Of a stretch of 64,000 nucleotides of DNA, positions 20,777-32,438 are shown piece by piece. Where the stretch lies: assembly GCA_016787415.1 (NCBI GenBank), contig JAEUUT010000228.1:1-64000 (forward strand). Direction: 5' to 3'. Each line of letters opens with the position of its first letter. The first letter of the stretch is position 1. This DNA comes from Saprospiraceae bacterium (lineage in GTDB: Bacteria; Bacteroidota; Bacteroidia; Chitinophagales; Saprospiraceae). The position numbers were made by a program, and so were the translations under genes. The notes under the pieces were generated by a model. It was not told the origin of the DNA. It made no database searches and saw only the letters and a list, made by a program, of their open reading frames with translations.

Positions 20777-22663
20777 TTATCGCACGATCAACACCGGAAT
20801 GTTCACGGCATGCCGTACGGCTCCGACGGTGGTGCCAAAAATCAGGTCTTTCAGCGCCCGGTGCCCGTGTGCGCCCATGACCAGCAGGTCGGCGTTTTTT
20901 TCGATCACCAGTTTAGGTATGGCCTTTTTGGCCAGGCCGTAGCCGATGACCGACTCGCACTTATAGCCCAGATCGGTCAATGCAAGGCGGTATTCTTCCA
21001 GGTATTTAAAGTCGGCATGGGTTTCATAATCCTGAATATCGCTGCCCAGAACCCATGCGCCTGCCGTTTCAACGGCATGAATCAGGTAATAGCGGGCATT
21101 CTTTCCGCCGATATGCAAAGCATGTTGCAGCGTTTTCTGATCGGCGGTGGAAAAGTCGACGGCTACGGCGATTTCTTTAAATTCCGGTTCCTGTGATGGT
21201 GCAAATGCTTTGAAATTGACGTGTGGAACGGGCGTTTTGGAACGGGGCAAATTGATCACAAGCGGCCTCAGCACGATATATACCAGCATGCCTGCTATGC
21301 CCAGCAGCGTTGGAATGACAATCCATTCCACCACCCATTTGTATTCACCGCTACCAGCCAGCCAGATGTGCGCCTGTTCATACACCAGGCGTACATTCAG
21401 ACCAACGATCACTGCTGCACTCAACCAGCCGCCTGCTTTTGTCCAGAAACCAATGGCATAATCGCCCATTCGTTTGCGGCTGCTGACGTAATGCAGCAGC
21501 GGAATGATTGCAAAACCCAGTTGCATACTCAGAATAACCTGACTCATCACGAGCATGTTGCCGGTAGAGGACTCTCCAAATACGGCAATTACCACGATGG
21601 CAGGCACCACAGCAAGCAGGCGTGTGATGAGCCTGCGCAGCCAGGGGGCAATGCGCAGGTGCAGGTAGCCTTCCATGACGATCTGCCCGGCCAGCGTACC
21701 CGTTACCGTGCTGCTTTGCCCGGCAGCAATAAGTGCGATGGCAAAAAGGGCCGGCGCATAACTTTTTCCCAGCAATGGCTCCAGCAGGCGGTGCGCATCC
21801 TGTATTTCCGACACGCCATTGTATCCGTTTTTATGGAAAACGGCGGCAGCCAGAATCAGGATAGCGGCATTGACAAACAAAGCGAGGTTGAGTGCAATGG
21901 CCGAATCAATTACATTAAACCGGATGGCGCGACGCAGGCCTTCGCTTGTGCGTTCCACCTTGCGGGATTGTACCAGCGCCGAATGCAGGTACAAATTGTG
22001 GGGCATCACCGTTGCACCAATGATGCCGATGGCAATAAACAGCGCTTCAGTATTGGGAATGCCAGGCACAAACCCGAAGGCGACCTCGCTCAAATCCGGT
22101 TTGGCAAGTACCATTTGAATGGCAAATGCGCCGCCGATAATCAGGATCAGGGCCAGAATGATGGCTTCCAGCCGCCGAATGCCCAGTTGCATCAAAAACA
22201 GTATCAGAAATGCATCGAGCACGCTCAAGCCTACGCCCCAGATCAGCGGTATGTGAAAAAGCAACTGCAAACCGATGGCCATGCCCAATACTTCTGCCAG
22301 GTCGCAGGAGGCTATGGCAATTTCCGCCAGTACATAATTAAATATGTTGGCTGCCGGATGGTAGAGTTCGCGAGATGCCTGTGCCAGGTCGCGCTGCGCT
22401 ACCACGCCAAGTCGTGCGCACATGCTTTGCAGCAGCAATGCTATGAGGTTGGACATGAGTAATACCCATAGCAGGGAATACCCAAAACGGCTACCACCAG
22501 CCAGGTCGGTGGCCCAGTTGCCAGGATCCATGTAGCCTACACTTACGAGATAGGCCGGACCTAAAAAAACGAATAAGCGCCTCCAGAATCCACCTTTTAC
22601 ATTGGTTTCTACGGTACTGTGTACCTCGGAGAGCGAACGCTCGGGATGTATATTTGGATGCAT
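20777..22663 (-). CDS. mntH: Nramp-type Mn2+/divalent metal transporter fused to a UspA domain
   Basis: 628 residues. Residues ~25-450 form an Nramp proton-coupled metal transporter with about 11-12 TM helices. The metal-site DPGN is at 46-49 (VGYMDPGNWATDL) and the second half-site MPHNLYLHSALVQSR is near 220. Residues ~485-628 are a universal stress protein domain with the nucleotide-binding pattern G2xG9xGT (GAHGHRALKDLIFGT). Nramp alone is ~410-450 residues, so the UspA part is a true extension in the same frame and may sense ATP or stress at the cytoplasmic face. It follows mntR on the same strand, with a type F array in between. Confidence 0.92.
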   Translation of the reverse strand: MHPNIHPERSLSEVHSTVETNVKGGFWRRLFVFLGPAYLVSVGYMDPGNWATDLAGGSRFGYSLLWVLLMSNLIALLLQSMCARLGVVAQRDLAQASRELYHPAANIFNYVLAEIAIASCDLAEVLGMAIGLQLLFHIPLIWGVGLSVLDAFLILFLMQLGIRRLEAIILALILIIGGAFAIQMVLAKPDLSEVAFGFVPGIPNTEALFIAIGIIGATVMPHNLYLHSALVQSRKVERTSEGLRRAIRFNVIDSAIALNLALFVNAAILILAAAVFHKNGYNGVSEIQDAHRLLEPLLGKSYAPALFAIALIAAGQSSTVTGTLAGQIVMEGYLHLRIAPWLRRLITRLLAVVPAIVVIAVFGESSTGNMLVMSQVILSMQLGFAIIPLLHYVSSRKRMGDYAIGFWTKAGGWLSAAVIVGLNVRLVYEQAHIWLAGSGEYKWVVEWIVIPTLLGIAGMLVYIVLRPLVINLPRSKTPVPHVNFKAFAPSQEPEFKEIAVAVDFSTADQKTLQHALHIGGKNARYYLIHAVETAGAWVLGSDIQDYETHADFKYLEEYRLALTDLGYKCESVIGYGLAKKAIPKLVIEKNADLLVMGAHGHRALKDLIFGTTVGAVRHAVNIPVLIVR

Positions 22664-22678
22664 GGATGTTTTTTTTTG

Positions 22679-22825
22679 GTTGATAAGGTTGATGAGGGGT
22701 TGATGAGGGTTGATAAAGGGTTGATAAATGGCGGCTCGGGGTAAGTTAGGATTTCCCGTTCATCGAGCGGCTGAATATCAACCCTCATCAACATTCATCA
22801 ACCCTCATCAACATTTATCAGCCCC
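22679..22825. repeat. Type F palindrome (ttgatgagg units) between mntR and mntH
   Basis: The left arm has repeated ggttgatgagg / gggttgataaa units (22679-22732). The right arm carries the inverse (caaccctcatcaac, 22776-22825), with a ~43-nt loop. The TGA stop of mntR (22818-22820) is inside the right arm. As it lies within a probable transcript, it may affect mntR/mntH coupling. Confidence 0.85.
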
Positions 22826-23480
22826 TAATCACAAACAAATTCTGCGCTACCTTTTCGCTCAATGTAACTTCTGTTTTTCCGCTGATGCGTACCTGCACCG
22901 ATTGATCGTATTCGGTACGGTGGAGGAGCAGCAGTTCAATGCCGAGCGCTACGCCGATTTGATCGAGGTATTGCAAAAAAGGTGTAGCATGGTCATCCAC
23001 ACCAGTTAATATTCCTTTCTCGCCGGGTTGCAGCAGCGATACACGCACTTGCTGCCGGAAAGTCCAGCGGCCTTGTGCATCCGGTATGGGATCGCCGTGG
23101 GGGTCGAAGCGGGGGTGTCCCAGGAAATTATCGAGTCGATCAATCAGGGCCTCGCCTTGTACGTGCTCGAGTTGTTCGGCCAGATCATGTACTTCATCCC
23201 AGGCAAATCCGAGTTTTTCGACCAGAAAAACCTCCCAAAGCCGGTGTTTTCTGATCAATATGGTAGCAAGTCTATTGCCTTCTTCGGTGAGTTCCACACC
23301 GCGATACTTCTCATATTTGATCAGATGTTTTTCCGCCAGTCGTTTGAGCATATCGGTCACCGAAGCGGCAGCGGTATTCATGGCTGCCGCGATAGAATTG
23401 GTGAGCACAGCCTTGTCTTCTTTTTCGGCAATTTTGAAAATGGCTTTCAGGTAATTTTCTTCTGCGGTAGTGATGGTCAT
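22818..23480 (-). CDS. mntR: MntR/DtxR-family metal-dependent repressor
   Basis: 220 residues. An N-terminal winged helix (SIAAAMNTAAASVTDMLKRL and HLIKYEKYRGVELTEEG) is followed by the DtxR dimerisation domain (HRLWEVFLVEKLGFAWDEVHDLAEQLEHV, holding the metal ligands Glu, His, Asp) and a C-terminal FeoA/SH3-like domain (~150-220). With Mn2+ or Fe2+ bound it should repress its own operon and the Nramp gene downstream. A DtxR-type operator half-site overlaps its promoter. The neighbourhood with mntH favours a manganese role, but iron cannot be excluded. Confidence 0.93.
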   Translation of the reverse strand: MTITTAEENYLKAIFKIAEKEDKAVLTNSIAAAMNTAAASVTDMLKRLAEKHLIKYEKYRGVELTEEGNRLATILIRKHRLWEVFLVEKLGFAWDEVHDLAEQLEHVQGEALIDRLDNFLGHPRFDPHGDPIPDAQGRWTFRQQVRVSLLQPGEKGILTGVDDHATPFLQYLDQIGVALGIELLLLHRTEYDQSVQVRISGKTEVTLSEKVAQNLFVIRG

Positions 23481-27221: not shown

Positions 27222-27260
27222 CCTTCTAATCCTTAAAATCCTGCCAATCCTGATTCAACC
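27216..27260. repeat. Type A half element shared by msrB end and ydeI-like start
   Basis: One nonamer arm (ttctaatcc, ttaaaatcc, tgccaatcc, tgattcaa). Read on the minus strand it encodes the last msrB residues (LNQDWQDFKD and TAG), and its ggatgccc edge supplies the ATG of the next gene. Confidence 0.85.
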
Positions 27261-27834
27261 CTCCACTCAACACATCCGGTTCAAAATCCAGCACAACTGA
27301 ATTCATGCAAAATCGCTTGCCTGTGGGTGGCGGTCCATCGTCGAACAGGTGACCCAGGTGGCTGCCGCAGCGTCCGCACAGCACCTCTACGCGTTCCATG
27401 TTGTAGGAGTGATCGTCTTGATAAGCGACGCTATTGGGGCGAACGGTTTCAAAAAAACTCGGCCAGCCGCATTCGCTGGCAAATTTACTGTCCGAACGAA
27501 ACAATGCATTGCCACAAACCGCACAATAATAGGTGCCGATGCCGGTGTAATTCCAGTATTTGCCTGTAAAAGCATATTCCGTGTCTTTTTCGCGGGCTAC
27601 CTGGTAAATACTGTCGGGCAGAATTTTTTTCCACTCCGCATCCGACACATGGAGTACAGTAGTGTCGGAACGGGAATAGTATGGGTTGGTAGCAGGGGAG
27701 TTGCCCTCGGCAGGGGGGGCGGAGGAGGCTACCTGTCCTGCTTTGGGTCGGCAAGATGTCAAAATGGCAAGTATGGCAAACAATAATACGCGCATTGTAA
27801 AAAGGATATTTGGTGTGTAATATGTACGGGTCAT
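27226..27834 (-). CDS. msrB: Peptide-methionine (R)-S-oxide reductase, lipoprotein
   Basis: Reduces methionine-R-sulfoxide in proteins. 202 residues from the longest start; the second Met (MRVLLFAILAILTSC, residue 14) gives a clear lipoprotein signal with lipobox ILTSC, so ATG 27795 is probably the real start and the enzyme is anchored in the periplasm. The MsrB domain has two zinc CxxC pairs (CAVC and CGRC), the GWPSF substrate motif and the catalytic Cys in KRFCMNSVVLDF (usually RYCINS). The C-terminal ten residues are encoded by the type A repeat. The neighbour downstream is the ydeI-like gene. Confidence 0.92.
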   Translation of the reverse strand: MTRTYYTPNILFTMRVLLFAILAILTSCRPKAGQVASSAPPAEGNSPATNPYYSRSDTTVLHVSDAEWKKILPDSIYQVAREKDTEYAFTGKYWNYTGIGTYYCAVCGNALFRSDSKFASECGWPSFFETVRPNSVAYQDDHSYNMERVEVLCGRCGSHLGHLFDDGPPPTGKRFCMNSVVLDFEPDVLSGGLNQDWQDFKD

Positions 27835-27944: not shown

Positions 27945-29081
27945 ATGCGTCTCTTGTTGTTGTTGTTGTTGTTGTTTTGTTTTTCCTGCAACATCGCGTT
28001 ACAAAATCCATCGCCCAGTGCCGATATTTCCGGGCAGAGTTCCAGTCCGGTACACACCTGGTGGCTGATTCTGGTATCGGGTTTTTCTGCCTCTATCCTG
28101 TTTTTTATCTGGAAAAACCTGGCTGGCTACCACCGCATTCGCTGGCTCCAATTGTGGCATATCATCATCAGGCAAGTGGGCAACGAGCAGTATGACCTGG
28201 GCGTGCTGGCTCTGTCGCTGGCCATACTCTGCTGGTTGGTGTCGGGCTTGTTTTCTCTGGTGCAGGCGCCTTTTGTGCAGTTGCTGGCTACCAGTGTGTG
28301 TTCTTCGCTTAATTCGGGGTTTTTGCTGCTTTTTTTGCGGCATCTCGACAAAGAAGACCTGCCCCCATCGTTCAGTGCTTATTTTCCTACCCGGCACACC
28401 ATCTGGACGGTTTTTATCATGGTGGTGCTGGTAACAGGTAGCCTTGCGGTTTGTGTACACACGGTTGGTTTGCCAGATTTTGCCATGCTGATACCCGACC
28501 TGGCATTTTCACTGTACACCTTGTATTTCATCGGATTCAGTTTTTTTTACCTGCTGGAAACACGCCTCAAAAGTGTTGAAATCGCAGTGCTTTCATGGGT
28601 ACCCATTGTTATTACCCTGCTGGCCGAGGTATTCCAACTGGTTTCTTCAAAACAAAACGGCCTGTCCGACCCCGTTCTGAAAATGTGGCATGAAACGCTG
28701 CTATTTTCCTATAAACCGCTGCTGATTATCTCCTATTTCGTACTGATTTATTCCTGGCAATTAAAACGCATCAACCGGAAAGAAATGCTACCATCTGCCA
28801 AACCCGGCCGGCCTGCGCCGGACACCGTCAGCGCAGATGTACAGGCGGGCCGGGAACAATACCGCTTGCTGGGCCCCAAGGACTGGATGATACTGGAAGC
28901 CCTGGTGCGGGGTGAAAAAACCACGGCCATTGCAGCCGCCTACCCTGCCGATTTTCCCAACGGCGCCAAGGGGGTCGACGACCGCATTGGCGCCATTGCC
29001 CGGGAGTTTCAGTTGAGCGGGCAATCGCAAATAAAAATTGTGGTGACGGCGCTGAAGCGAGGGCTGCTGGCGTATCCTTGA
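27945..29081 (+). CDS. 7TM membrane protein with C-terminal LuxR-like HTH
   Basis: About 378 residues from ATG 27945 (a TTG six codons earlier is also open). A signal-like leader (MRLLLLLLLLFCFSC, a probable lipobox) is followed by about seven hydrophobic segments between ~45 and 280 (e.g. LGVLALSLAILCWLVSGLFS, TIWTVFIMVVLVTGSLAVCV). The last ~75 residues follow a LuxR/GerE pattern: LGPKDWMILEALVRGEKTTAIA ... VDDRIGAIAREFQL ... VVTALKRGLL. This matches L..kd..iL..l..G..t..IA and an Alk.GLL ending. It is probably a membrane-bound transcription regulator; the signal is unknown. Ending 2 bp after the stop is a type C array arm. Confidence 0.75.
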   Translation: MRLLLLLLLLFCFSCNIALQNPSPSADISGQSSSPVHTWWLILVSGFSASILFFIWKNLAGYHRIRWLQLWHIIIRQVGNEQYDLGVLALSLAILCWLVSGLFSLVQAPFVQLLATSVCSSLNSGFLLLFLRHLDKEDLPPSFSAYFPTRHTIWTVFIMVVLVTGSLAVCVHTVGLPDFAMLIPDLAFSLYTLYFIGFSFFYLLETRLKSVEIAVLSWVPIVITLLAEVFQLVSSKQNGLSDPVLKMWHETLLFSYKPLLIISYFVLIYSWQLKRINRKEMLPSAKPGRPAPDTVSADVQAGREQYRLLGPKDWMILEALVRGEKTTAIAAAYPADFPNGAKGVDDRIGAIAREFQLSGQSQIKIVVTALKRGLLAYP

Positions 29082-29082
29082 C

Positions 29083-29114
29083 AGAGGTGAGAGGTGAGAG
29101 GTGAGAAGTGAGAG
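29083..29114. repeat. Type C heptamer array, single arm
   Basis: Tandem gaggtga / gaagtga heptamers start 2 bp after the upstream stop. No inverted partner is seen. Confidence 0.75.
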
Positions 29115-29184
29115 ATTCCCCCAAATTTCCGGTCTTTTCCCCCAAATCGACTTTTTGCGGTTTTTCCCTGCATAGGTCGGCTTC

Positions 29185-29192
29185 TACTTTTG
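29185..29192 (+). promoter_or_regulatory. -7 promoter element (TACTTTTG) of the amino-acid permease
   Basis: An exact TAnnTTTG. The start site would be near 29198, downstream of the in-frame ATG at 29194, which argues for the ATG at 29242. Confidence 0.5.
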
Positions 29193-29241: not shown

Positions 29242-30906
29242 ATGCCGAACAACCTTTTTCGCAGGAAAACAATCGACTCCATTTTACAGGATGCCTACAA
29301 CAAAAGCGCAGATCATGAAGCGCATGGCCTCAAACGTGTATTAAGTCTGCGCGACCTTACTTTTTTCGGGATAGCAGCCATCATCGGCGCCGGAAGTTTC
29401 AGTGCGCTGGGCCCGGCCATTTACAACGGCGGCCCCGGCGTATCGATATTATTCGTATTATGTGGTATAGCCTGTGCCTTCACGGCCTTGTGCTACTCCG
29501 ATTTTGCGAGCCGCATCCCGGTGGCCGGCAGTGCTTACACCTATGCATACGCATCGCTGGGTGAAATTGTGGCCTGGATCATCGGCTGGGCATTGCTCAT
29601 GGAATACGCCATCGGAAATGTGTACGTGGCATTTTCCTGGAGTGATTATTTCACCTCGTTGTTGTCGAGGCTGCATGTACCCTTGCCGGAATTTCTGACC
29701 TGTAGTTACAGCGAAGCAGCCGGTAGCAGCCGCGCCGATCTCGTACGCGCCTGGGAGTCGGCGCCGCAAGTGGGTGGCCTGCGCCTGATTGTCGACCTGC
29801 CTGCATTGGTGATCAATGCACTGATTACCTGGCTAGTGTACATCGGCATCCGCGAATCGCGCAATTTCAGCAATGTAATGGTGATGATGAAATTGTCGAT
29901 TATTGCCCTGATCCTGCTCATTACCGGATATTTGATTTTCCATAACGGACTCACTTACAACTGGACGCCGCCGAATGCCGCAGGCGAACACAGTTTTTTC
30001 CCCAATCAGTTCAGTGGCGTGATGAAAGCGGTGAGTGGCGTTTTTTTTGCCTACATCGGCTTCGATGCCGTGAGTATTCTGGCAGAAGAAAGCAAAAACC
30101 CGCAACGCGACCTGCCGCGCGGTATGATTTTGTCGCTGGTAATTTGCACCATTATTTACATCCTGCTGTCGCTGGCGCTCACCGGCGTAGTGCCATACGA
30201 CCGCTTTATGAATGTAAACGACCCGCTGGCGTTCATTTTTGAGCCGCAAAACCTGAATATCGGCTGGATGCAGTTCATTGTTGCTGTGTGTGCGGTCATT
30301 GCCATGAGCAGTGTCATGCTGGTGATGCAAATGGGCCAGCCGCGCATCTGGATGAGCATGAGCCGCGACGGGCTGATGCCTGCTGCATTTCAAAAAATTC
30401 ATCCCAAATACAAAACACCGCATATTGCCACGCTGATGACGGGCCTGGTGGTGGGCTCCATGATCGTGTTGAGCAACAGCCGCTTTGTACTCGATTTTAC
30501 GAGCACAGGTACTTTGTTTGCTTTTGTGATTGTTTGTGCCGGCGTATTATTCCTGCCGCGCAAGAAAAAGACGCCCGGGCAGTTTCATATGCCTTACTGG
30601 AACGGGAAATACGTGTACCCTTTACTGGTGCTGGGTGGATTTGTGGCATTTGCCATTTTTAATTGGAGCGCACTGTTCGGCCATGTACCCACCATTCTGT
30701 TTTGGCTGATTTGCGGTGCCCTGGCAGTGCTGACTTTTTTGAAAAACCTGTCCATGATCCCCCTGATGGGGCTTACGTCCTGCCTCTACCTGCTTACGGG
30801 CATCCAGGAAAGCAACTGGAAATGGTTTTTTATCTGGTTCGGCGTAGGGCTGGTGGTGTATGGGGTGGGGAGGTTGAATCAGGATTTTAAGGATAAGAAG
30901 GATTAG
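29242..30906 (+). CDS. APC-family amino-acid permease
   Basis: About 554 residues from ATG 29242 (MPNNLFRRKTIDSIL). An upstream ATG at 29194 overlaps the promoter. There are about 12-13 TM helices with the APC consensus GIAAIIGAGSFSALG in TM1 and PVAGSAYTYAYASLGEIVAW in TM3, and YIGFDAVSILAEESKNPQRDLP after TM6. It resembles the cationic/branched amino-acid (CAT-type) exchangers. The substrate is unknown. The final residues LNQDFKDKKD and the TAG stop are encoded by the type A palindrome, so its natural C-terminus has been replaced. Confidence 0.9.
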   Translation: MPNNLFRRKTIDSILQDAYNKSADHEAHGLKRVLSLRDLTFFGIAAIIGAGSFSALGPAIYNGGPGVSILFVLCGIACAFTALCYSDFASRIPVAGSAYTYAYASLGEIVAWIIGWALLMEYAIGNVYVAFSWSDYFTSLLSRLHVPLPEFLTCSYSEAAGSSRADLVRAWESAPQVGGLRLIVDLPALVINALITWLVYIGIRESRNFSNVMVMMKLSIIALILLITGYLIFHNGLTYNWTPPNAAGEHSFFPNQFSGVMKAVSGVFFAYIGFDAVSILAEESKNPQRDLPRGMILSLVICTIIYILLSLALTGVVPYDRFMNVNDPLAFIFEPQNLNIGWMQFIVAVCAVIAMSSVMLVMQMGQPRIWMSMSRDGLMPAAFQKIHPKYKTPHIATLMTGLVVGSMIVLSNSRFVLDFTSTGTLFAFVIVCAGVLFLPRKKKTPGQFHMPYWNGKYVYPLLVLGGFVAFAIFNWSALFGHVPTILFWLICGALAVLTFLKNLSMIPLMGLTSCLYLLTGIQESNWKWFFIWFGVGLVVYGVGRLNQDFKDKKD

Positions 30907-31144: not shown

Positions 31145-32227
31145 TTGAAAGCGATTCTCCTTCTCGAAGACGGCACCGTGTTTCACGGCAAGGCAGCCGG
31201 CAAAATCGGTACAACTACCGGTGAAATTTGTTTCAACACCGGCATGACCGGTTACCAGGAAATTTTTACAGACCCATCCTATACCGGCCAGGTGCTCGTG
31301 GCTACCAATGTCCATATAGGCAATTATGGTATTAAAAAGGATGAGGTGGAGAGTGAAAGCGTCAAGATTGCCGGATTTATCTGCCGCAATTTTAACGTGC
31401 CATTTAGCCGGCAAGTGGCCGACCAGAGCATTCAGGACTATTTCGAAGCGGAAGGGCTGGTGGCTATTCACGACCTCGACACCCGCGCCATTGTGCAGCA
31501 CATCCGCGAGCGGGGCGCCCAGAACTGCATTATTTCTTCGGAAACTGACGATGTGGAAGAACTAAAAAAACGACTGGCTGCCACTCCTGGCATGGCCGGG
31601 CTCGAACTTTCCAGCCACATCACTACCCGCGAGCCTTATTTTATCGGCGATGAAAATGCAAAATACCGCATTGCCGTGATGGATTATGGGGTAAAAAAGA
31701 ATATCCTGCGCTGTTTCGACGAACGCGACTGCTACCTGAAAGTTTTTCCCGCCAAAACGGATTTCAGCGAAGTAAAAGCCTGGAACCCACACGGCTATTT
31801 TTTGTCCAACGGCCCCGGCGACCCCTCCTCCATGCCTTACGCGGTGGAAAATGTAAAGAAAATGCTGGCCGATGGAAAGCCGCTGTTCGGCATTTGCCTA
31901 GGACAACAATTGCTGGCCCTGGCTGCCGGACTGCCTACCTACAAACTGCACCACGGCCACCGCGGCCTCAACCACCCGGTGAAAAATCTGGTGACCGGCC
32001 TCTCCGAAATCACCAGCCAGAACCACGGTTTTGGCGTACTCGAACAAGCCGTCTATGACAGCCCTTCTATCGTGGAGGCTACGCACCTCAATCTGAACGA
32101 CCAGACTATCGAAGGTATTCGCCTGAAAAACTATCCGGCCTTCAGCGTACAATACCACCCGGAAGCCAGCCCGGGCCCGCACGATGCGCGGTATTTGTTT
32201 GATCAGTTTGTGACCCAAATGAGTTAG
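31145..32227 (+). CDS. carA: Carbamoyl-phosphate synthase small subunit
   Basis: The glutaminase subunit that delivers ammonia to CarB for arginine and pyrimidine synthesis. 360 residues, normal. Start TTG 31145 (TTG-AAA-GCG-ATT). The N-domain has the family's AILLLEDGTVFHGKAAG. The class I glutaminase carries the nucleophile Cys in PLFGICLGQQLLALAAG (~245) and the His/Glu pair in SVQYHPEASPGPHD (~333-346). The conserved KLHHGHRGLNHPV is present. carB is not adjacent, which is common in Bacteroidota. The stop TAG is at the edge of a type D array. Confidence 0.96.
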   Translation: MKAILLLEDGTVFHGKAAGKIGTTTGEICFNTGMTGYQEIFTDPSYTGQVLVATNVHIGNYGIKKDEVESESVKIAGFICRNFNVPFSRQVADQSIQDYFEAEGLVAIHDLDTRAIVQHIRERGAQNCIISSETDDVEELKKRLAATPGMAGLELSSHITTREPYFIGDENAKYRIAVMDYGVKKNILRCFDERDCYLKVFPAKTDFSEVKAWNPHGYFLSNGPGDPSSMPYAVENVKKMLADGKPLFGICLGQQLLALAAGLPTYKLHHGHRGLNHPVKNLVTGLSEITSQNHGFGVLEQAVYDSPSIVEATHLNLNDQTIEGIRLKNYPAFSVQYHPEASPGPHDARYLFDQFVTQMS

Positions 32228-32438
32228 TTATTGGTTATCAGTTATCTGTTATCGGGGGTGGTAAGGAGACCCATTTGTACAATTTATTGGCTACTCGATA
32301 AGGCATGCTAAACAATTGTACAAATGGTCTCCTTACCACCCCTGATAACTAATAACCGATAACTGATAACACGTACAGATGGTCTCCTTATCACCCCCGA
32401 TAACAGATAACTGATAACTGATAACTGATAACCAACTA
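32225..32438. repeat. Type D heptamer palindrome between convergent genes
   Basis: The arms are ttatcag / ttatctg / ttatcgg heptamers. The inner stem gtaaggagacc (32261-) pairs with ggtctccttac (32327-) and continues as atttgtacaa / ttgtacaaat. A second partial copy of the inner stem is at 32381-32390. Both TAG stops (carA at 32225-32227 and enoyl-CoA hydratase at 32436-32438) lie exactly on its outer edges in the sequence agttag. Confidence 0.9.

Follow-up and report, generated by a model that had tools for sequence, protein, structure and literature searches.

The regulator gene and its neighbours

The window, by which is meant the whole stretch of 64,000 nucleotides that was analysed, comes from a genome (G000) whose assembly is incomplete and totals 6.1 Mb over 299 contigs. 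Positions 27945-29081 of its forward strand hold an open frame of 378 codons that encodes a predicted membrane protein of 378 residues (P0001), in which a leader, a seven-helix domain and a LuxR-like tail follow one another. Its ATG start was preferred over an in-frame TTG located 18 nt upstream because the N-termini of the homologues support it. A gene for an APC-family amino-acid permease follows on the same strand at 29242-30906 (PF13520, E 3e-51); the best NCBIfam model of this permease is BcaP, below its cut-off. The divergent gene at 27226-27834 on the reverse strand encodes MsrB, a methionine-R-sulfoxide reductase (TIGR00357, above cut-off), and is regarded as a neighbour only. A frame closely similar to it was seen by eye to adjoin the regulator gene in G034, another genome of the genus.

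Proteins with the same tail were found in four of the 42 genomes of the genus, G000 included. The homologues of G034 and G033 are intact, similar in length and 88% and 66% identical to P0001 respectively; that of G040 is 37% identical and its N-terminus is missing at a contig end. Between G000 and G034, dN and dS were 0.006 and 0.38 in the tail and 0.066 and 0.86 in the seven-helix part. Synonymous change therefore exceeds non-synonymous change, most strongly in the tail, which is the best-conserved part of the protein. Since homologues occur in the same genus and dS exceeds dN, as is expected under purifying selection, the frame is a real gene.

No Pfam or NCBIfam model matched P0001, even at E 10, and no significant sequence match in the PDB was found for the protein or its tail. 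RNA families were not found in the window. A promoter scan was near chance (2 found, 1.2 expected), and terminator-like sites numbered 5 with 2.0 expected. A separate observation, made by eye, concerns the reverse strand at 20777-23480, where a 628-residue protein resembling NRAMP-type metal transporters has a C-terminal UspA-like domain and adjoins a DtxR/MntR-like regulator of 220 residues.

Leader and seven-helix domain

Residues 1-34 (27945-28046, forward strand) form a leader that reads MRLLLLLLLLFCFSC and was modelled with low pLDDT. Its Cys15 stands at a lipobox-like site, and a cysteine after the hydrophobic run was observed in all three genomes with a complete N-terminus, within CCCSC in G034 and LFSSC in G033. 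The lipobox rule of the Bacteroidota is a lax one. As the leader cysteine is retained after the hydrophobic run, a lax lipobox of this type is plausible in P0001, which remains an unproven inference.

Seven helices follow the leader with the N-terminus outside and the C-terminus inside, as read by hand from overlapping windows of hydropathy and the positive-inside rule. An AlphaFold model built on a 27-sequence alignment (mean pLDDT 82.4, pTM 0.68) placed the membrane helices at residues 35-60, 85-103, 109-132, 151-172, 178-208, 218-236 and 243-281. The two approaches agree on the same seven helices, all of which lie within residues 35-281 (28047-28787, forward strand). The original prediction had proposed a signal-like leader followed by about seven membrane helices, which both approaches bear out, and it would have been refuted by a C-terminus outside the cytoplasm; that outcome was not seen, the C-terminus being predicted as cytoplasmic from hydropathy and the positive-inside rule. 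As to its putative lipobox, the cysteine is retained in G034 and G033, and the motif is plausible but unproven.

A set of polar residues in the seven-helix domain was found to be common to the family members. Ser120 and Asn123 do not vary among the 26 rows of the 27-row alignment that have a residue there, Asp185 and Arg207 are present in 27 of 27 rows, and lysine or arginine occupies position 257 in 26 of 27. P0001 itself meets this test for the family, having the seven helices together with the full set. The conserved polar residues could form a ligand site within the bundle, although this is an inference. We also considered an identity as rhodopsin, as the model has rhodopsins and GPCRs among its structural matches (VIA Z 12-14) and a conserved lysine in helix 7. 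This reading was dropped because the lysine, Lys257, is arginine or valine in the kinase-type relatives and because such Z values are common for helical bundles. A Foldseek search with the whole model returned nothing below E 0.001.

The C-terminal tail

Residues 306-378 (28860-29078, forward strand) were modelled by AlphaFold with four helices, at 311-321, 326-332, 341-354 and 362-371. When the tail was modelled alone (79 residues, 4 sequences), the same helices were obtained with a pLDDT of 80.1. A Foldseek search of the PDB with the tail gave 88 matches, and 48 of the best 50 are DNA-binding domains of the LuxR/NarL/FixJ type, including DosR, VraR, FixJ, DegU, LiaR, GerE, NarL, CviR and RhlR; the other two are chains of one LysR-type protein. 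The E values were modest (best 0.14), with probabilities up to 1.00. In VIA-align all 50 listed matches are LuxR-type, with Z up to 9.8 for SdiA (2.1 A over 70 residues). The tail thus has a LuxR/NarL-type four-helix HTH fold in the predicted model, which is not an experimental structure.

The evidence from sequence is weaker. A profile search of PDB sequences with the tail at E up to 10 returned two distinct sequences, a molybdate-binding protein (E 0.83) and 7ve4, a DNA-binding response regulator of the LuxR type (E 1.2). A comparison by hhalign with the 14 GerE domains of G000 ran end to end over 67 columns, scoring 20.4 at a probability of only 14.6%, while 200 column shuffles reached a maximum score of 17.9. 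The curated cut-off of Pfam GerE (PF00196) was not met by P0001, for which no family was matched at E 10. Owing to the lack of a Pfam match and the low hhalign probability, the tail is described here as LuxR-HTH-like by fold and is not filed as GerE by sequence. A tail-only search gave matches in 13 of 398 genomes, namely G000, G034 and 11 weak matches with E from 0.003 to 0.05. Seven of the weak matches were inspected by eye, where six were found to resemble penicillin-binding proteins and one PurH; none was LuxR-like and they were set aside as chance.

The recognition helix of P0001, aligned by eye on the conserved valine, reads AKGVDDRIGAIAREF and does not meet the consensus TV..H...I..KL of the 14 GerE domains of G000. 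The valine is retained, with arginine in place of histidine, Glu-Phe in place of Lys-Leu and two aspartates after the valine. Histidine occupies the arginine position in 10 of the 14 GerE domains and tyrosine in 4, and lysine is found at the glutamate position in all 14. The consecutive Asp345 and Asp346 have no counterpart in these domains, six of which have one acidic residue there and none two. The turn before the recognition helix also appears longer by eye in P0001 than in the GerE domains. The two aspartates and the missing Lys-Leu count against DNA binding, whereas the region of the recognition helix is identical between G000 and G034 (dN 0). The divergent LuxR/GerE-like HTH of the original prediction, which had been matched by pattern only, is accordingly confirmed at the level of predicted fold by AlphaFold, Foldseek and VIA-align, the sequence having diverged too far to be recognised by Pfam GerE. 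Structure prediction had been named as a test that would refute the HTH if no such fold appeared, and this was not the case.

The neighbouring permease and repeats in the gap

The APC permease was observed directly downstream of the regulator in all four genomes that have the LuxR-like version, and it is the probable target. Its identity to the window copy is 94% in G034, 77% in G033 and 35% in G040. The genes beyond the permease differ in G033, where the regulator-permease pair is still present, and in G040 the regulator adjoins a different permease paralogue, the 35% identical one. Further paralogues with 51-56% identity occur elsewhere in the genus (loci L060-L086) without such a regulator in the locus, and the genomes of two of these loci (L077 and L086) carry it at another site. 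This genomic context suggests that P0001 functions as a regulator of the neighbouring amino-acid permease.

The gap between the two genes contains a direct repeat, TTCCCCC-N14-TTCCCCC, with a period of 21 bp (29116-29144, forward strand), which we regard as a candidate operator. G034 and G033 have this repeat at the corresponding position, and in all three genomes a third TTCCC lies 27 nt past the second. In the alignment of these genomes the third copy is conserved as TTTTTCCC (29161-29168, forward strand); it is absent in G040. The gap of G040 has a shorter form, TTCCC-N16-TTCCC, with an identical period, so that the pattern TTCCC-N16-TTCCC is present in four of four regulator-permease gaps. 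The short form of G040 was spotted by eye and one of its copies overlaps a terminator-like hairpin. Upstream of the permease ATG, the two copies lie at 126 and 105 nt in both G000 and G034, at 123 and 102 nt in G033 and at 117 and 96 nt in G040.

Dinucleotide shuffles of the gap gave the pattern in 0 of 5000 cases for G000, 0 of 5000 for G034 and 1 of 5000 for G033, and the short form of G040 in 20 of 20000. The long form was found in 3 of the 42 genomes of the genus at four sites, three of which are the regulator locus. Among loci L057-L086 the short form was present only at the three regulator loci and at none of the 27 paralogue loci (L060-L086) that have no regulator beside them. Other sites in G000 comprise one exact copy on contig C139 and two with 1 mismatch. 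A regulon defined by the repeat was considered for G000 and none was clear; the exact C139 site lies between sensor-kinase-like and CotH-like frames (by eye).

The Bacteroidota -7 element reads TAnnTTTG. The sequence TACTTTTG (29185-29192, forward strand) resembles this element, which is weak evidence as there is no TTTG of the -33 type at the usual distance and one mismatch occurs in G033. Short tandem AGAGGTG-like units were also noticed at 29083-29110, right after the stop codon of the regulator, where they have the look of a variable microsatellite. This array is longer in G034 (L006, 11082-11137) and was not seen in G033.

A wider family of seven-helix receptors

When the four proteins were turned into a profile, the membrane domain was recovered, joined to other tails, in 32 of 398 genomes of the same taxonomic family at E 0.01, with some of the matches weak. 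Across the phylum, the membrane-domain profile matched in 6 of 395 genomes; two of these belong to a different family within the class, and one match is weak and not a family member. An order-wide search gave 8 of 396 genomes, where the sole match outside the family is weak and has stops (L054), and a plasmid search for the seven-helix family returned no match. As scoring in the large searches was confined to the top 4 to 13 candidates of each genome, these genome counts are lower bounds.

Three outputs were found on the seven-helix domain, namely a LuxR-like tail, a histidine kinase and a wing-like tail. The LuxR-like output occurs at the four loci of the genus and at L122, which belongs to another taxonomic family. 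The tail of L122 is matched by Sigma70_r4_2 (E 0.0008) and by GerE (E 0.0022), in each case below the cut-off, and its hhalign comparison with the GerE domains of G000 reaches 98.1% (E 1.2e-13, score 65.5; maximum 18.7 in 200 shuffles). Tails of the P0001 type gave no direct match to the L122 tail (0.18%). The gene downstream of L122 encodes a Na/alanine symporter. Histidine-kinase outputs are present at L009 and L029, with weak HATPase_c/HisKA_2 matches, and by eye at L015 and L027, and response-regulator-like frames follow L015, L027 and L029. The wing-like tail is found in most of the remaining members. Its hhalign comparison with OmpR-type domains gave 46% over only 23 columns, and 100 shuffles reached at most 2.5%; judged from sequence, a winged-helix nature of this sister-group tail is likely but not shown.

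A tree of the seven-helix domain, from which the truncated L004 was omitted, left the deep forks unresolved and placed L122 and L124 on long branches. PF07695 was matched by only 1 of 27 relatives, weakly (E 2.8e-4), and 5TMR-LYT was not among the best 25 of the 28 Pfam families matched by these 27 relatives. Two members may be noted on their own account. The kinase-type relative at L015 (403-2814, genome G377) has 804 residues and seemingly two tandem membrane domains before the kinase (by eye). L124 is a second seven-helix member in G000 itself (contig C19, about 31557-32240), with a different tail and beside a POT peptide transporter.

Transporter neighbours and a second repeat element

In 21 of 30 non-kinase loci the next gene on the same strand encodes an importer of amino acids or peptides; 4 of these are APC permeases, 12 Na/alanine symporters (PF01235) and 5 POT peptide transporters (PF00854). 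None of the 26 LuxR- or OmpR-type regulator loci of G000 used as a control, with similar flanks, is next to such importers, and none of the four kinase-type loci has an importer downstream. The count of 21 in 30 excludes the kinase-type loci L009, L015, L027 and L029, which were counted separately; repeats of the same place (L004, L006-L008, L011, L055-L059, L099, L100, L112, L116, L117 and L120); weak or non-family matches (L031, L033, L036, L054 and L123); the matches in G257, G171 and G289:C22; and loci taken for other queries. L020, which has an in-frame stop, and L035, which ends 591 nt past its gene, were kept as misses. Since a transporter neighbour is absent within the examined flank at 9 of the 30 loci, a downstream importer is a typical rather than a strict feature of the family, and because the loci share descent, 21 is not a number of independent events. 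The link spans three transporter families and two taxonomic families. Two closely similar seven-helix proteins of one genus (L005 and L012) were seen to differ in this respect, with a symporter after one and none in the examined flank of the other. The neighbour may have been lost or gained recently, and the pair lends itself to a natural comparison.

A second element, the palindrome TGTCAGTA-N7-TACTGACA, precedes the symporter gene in 9 of 11 loci with the wing-like tail, with no more than 3 mismatches and five perfect copies. Its spacer is 7 nt in all nine loci, which represent nine genera. The palindrome is absent from L010, L018 and the LuxR-tailed L122, L010 having a look-alike with 5 mismatches. 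In a background of 96 other loci, which total 352,764 bases on a single strand and overlap in part, no copy with 2 or fewer mismatches and 12 with 3 were found. Among other seven-helix loci it occurs with 3 mismatches once each in L005 and L030, outside the gap. As the motif was first spotted by eye, these counts are descriptive and do not amount to a blind test.

For the POT loci, palindrome-like elements with TTGTAAC were seen by eye; they are inconsistent and no operator is claimed. Elements of the form TTGTAAC/TTGTTAC lie before POT genes in L028 (2640-2760), L025 (800-930) and L124 (980-1135), and are perhaps a third operator type.

Proposed mechanism and alternative explanations

We propose that P0001 is an amino-acid-sensing one-component regulator of the membrane which acts on the neighbouring permease by means of the TTCCCCC repeats, and we assign this reading a probability of about 0.72, with the ligand and DNA binding inferred. 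The seven-helix bundle would bind an extracellular ligand, most likely the amino acid carried by the adjacent permease, through the conserved Ser120, Asn123, Asp185 and Lys257. The signal would then run along the long last helix (243-281), which in this reading continues into the cytoplasm, to the LuxR/NarL-type HTH. This tail would act at the direct repeats (29116-29144) and so set transcription of the permease gene, of which it is probably an activator. Topology, tail fold and the conservation of neighbour and repeats were all computed; that the repeats are used, and for activation rather than repression, is inferred in the same way as the ligand and DNA binding. The one-component membrane regulator put forward in the original prediction is supported to this extent, and the conserved permease neighbour and the gap repeats fit it. 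The link to the permease, the repeats and the wider family with its other tails go beyond what that prediction had noticed.

The divergence of the tail leaves room for a different role, in which the HTH shape is retained but DNA binding has been lost, and the tail docks on a LuxR-type regulator, on RNA polymerase or on the permease, as a membrane co-regulator. HTH folds can serve as protein-interaction modules, and the two aspartates, the lack of Lys-Leu and a sequence beyond the reach of Pfam GerE would all suit such a role. Nevertheless, the region of the recognition helix has not changed between G000 and G034, the gap repeats go with the regulator in four of four genomes and the sister loci have their own palindrome at the same place, so that we consider this explanation unlikely. 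The repeats themselves could instead be termination or attenuation signals between the genes, unrelated to a regulator that may act elsewhere. Such a role is suggested by the TTCCC copy of G040 that lies within a hairpin followed by a T-run, and by T-rich DNA after some copies of the palindrome. Terminators, however, keep structure and not sequence, whereas here both words and exact spacers (14 and 7) are kept, the palindrome is conserved over nine genera and the repeat found in the window is direct rather than inverted; this too appears improbable.

Frequent adjacency to transporters, at 21 of 30 loci, would also be expected if the seven-helix protein bound the permease in the membrane and tuned its activity as a transceptor or partner subunit, without a role in transcription. 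APC permeases and Na/alanine symporters have distantly related folds, and it is therefore conceivable that 16 of the 21 partners have an interface in common. The POT transporters, which make up the other five (PF00854), have the unrelated MFS fold, and the relatives with histidine-kinase outputs and response-regulator-like genes point to signalling outputs, while conserved non-coding repeats indicate transcription. A partner subunit is therefore regarded as very unlikely. That P0001 is an ordinary membrane protein whose HTH is an artefact of prediction could be argued from its lack of any match in the family libraries, but two AlphaFold runs agree with a mean pLDDT above 80 and independent relatives of the seven-helix domain bear recognisable signalling tails, which makes an artefact scarcely tenable.

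Beyond the architecture, on which the original prediction was right, the larger result is a modular family of seven-helix receptors tied to amino-acid and peptide transporters, for which the operators are putative and DNA binding and ligand are inferred. With somewhat better than even confidence, we consider P0001 to be one branch of an undescribed receptor family for amino-acid and peptide uptake whose sensor domain has acquired, in the course of evolution, at least three different outputs and whose non-kinase forms act from the membrane on an operator of their own, located before the adjacent transporter gene, so that a prokaryotic nutrient receptor would serve as its own transcription factor.

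Relation to known systems

7TMR-DISM (PF07695) is a bacterial seven-helix domain with interchangeable intracellular outputs, and the P0001 family resembles it in this swapping of outputs. P0001 differs in having no PF07695 match and a leader of 34 residues, which is too short for an extracellular DISMED domain. ToxR and CadC have a single membrane helix, an N-terminal cytoplasmic winged helix and a periplasmic sensor. They share with P0001 a membrane-anchored DNA-binding regulator (DNA binding being inferred for P0001) without a phosphorelay; P0001 has the reverse orientation, seven membrane helices and a LuxR-type HTH.

DadR, HcdR and CadR of Eggerthella lenta are LuxR regulators with 10-12 membrane helices, and nearby genes are activated in response to a small molecule (PMC9734109). 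They are alike with P0001, for which this is a prediction, in combining within a single chain a polytopic membrane domain at the N-terminus and a LuxR-type HTH at the C-terminus. They differ in that their 10-12 helices are combined with a LuxR DNA-binding domain recognised by Pfam, whereas P0001 has seven helices and a divergent HTH without a Pfam match; P0001 also has a lipobox-like leader, belongs to the Bacteroidota and has transporters rather than enzymes as neighbours. With DadR there is an earlier example of a polytopic LuxR protein that acts as an activator (PMC9734109). BtsS/BtsR of E. coli comprises a LytS-type seven-helix pyruvate receptor with a periplasmic N-terminus; the small nutrient is bound within the bundle, and the receptor governs the matching transporter (PMC10653868). 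BtsS has the 5TMR-LYT Pfam domain, a GAF domain and a histidine kinase, and its response regulator is a protein of its own, while P0001 has its DNA-binding-like tail in the same chain and a seven-helix domain without a Pfam match. BtsS likewise provides a precedent for a seven-helix receptor that binds a nutrient in the membrane and controls a transporter (PMC10653868). Neither BtsS nor DadR belongs to the P0001 family by the tests made.

Among the matches listed, and within the extracts provided, the open-licence literature on membrane LuxR proteins, bacterial seven-helix proteins and Saprospiraceae seven-helix regulators was found to give no account of the P0001 family, and the same holds, with the same limits, for that on seven-helix one-component regulators of transporters. 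LuxR regulators with a polytopic membrane domain are scarcely documented; within the open-licence literature searched, they appear only in the work on 12-TM LuxR proteins of E. lenta and in one other paper, on a gut bacterium. If true, the reading proposed here would add a seven-helix sensor domain without a Pfam description that has exchanged its outputs, together with three types of transporter partner and a pair of candidate operators. It would also provide a simple system for how ligand binding within the bundle reaches a DNA-binding tail of the same chain, and one for how membrane-bound regulators find their DNA sites. For the Saprospiraceae, it would suggest classes of ligand (amino acids, alanine-type substrates and peptides) for several membrane proteins whose membrane domain is not described in Pfam.
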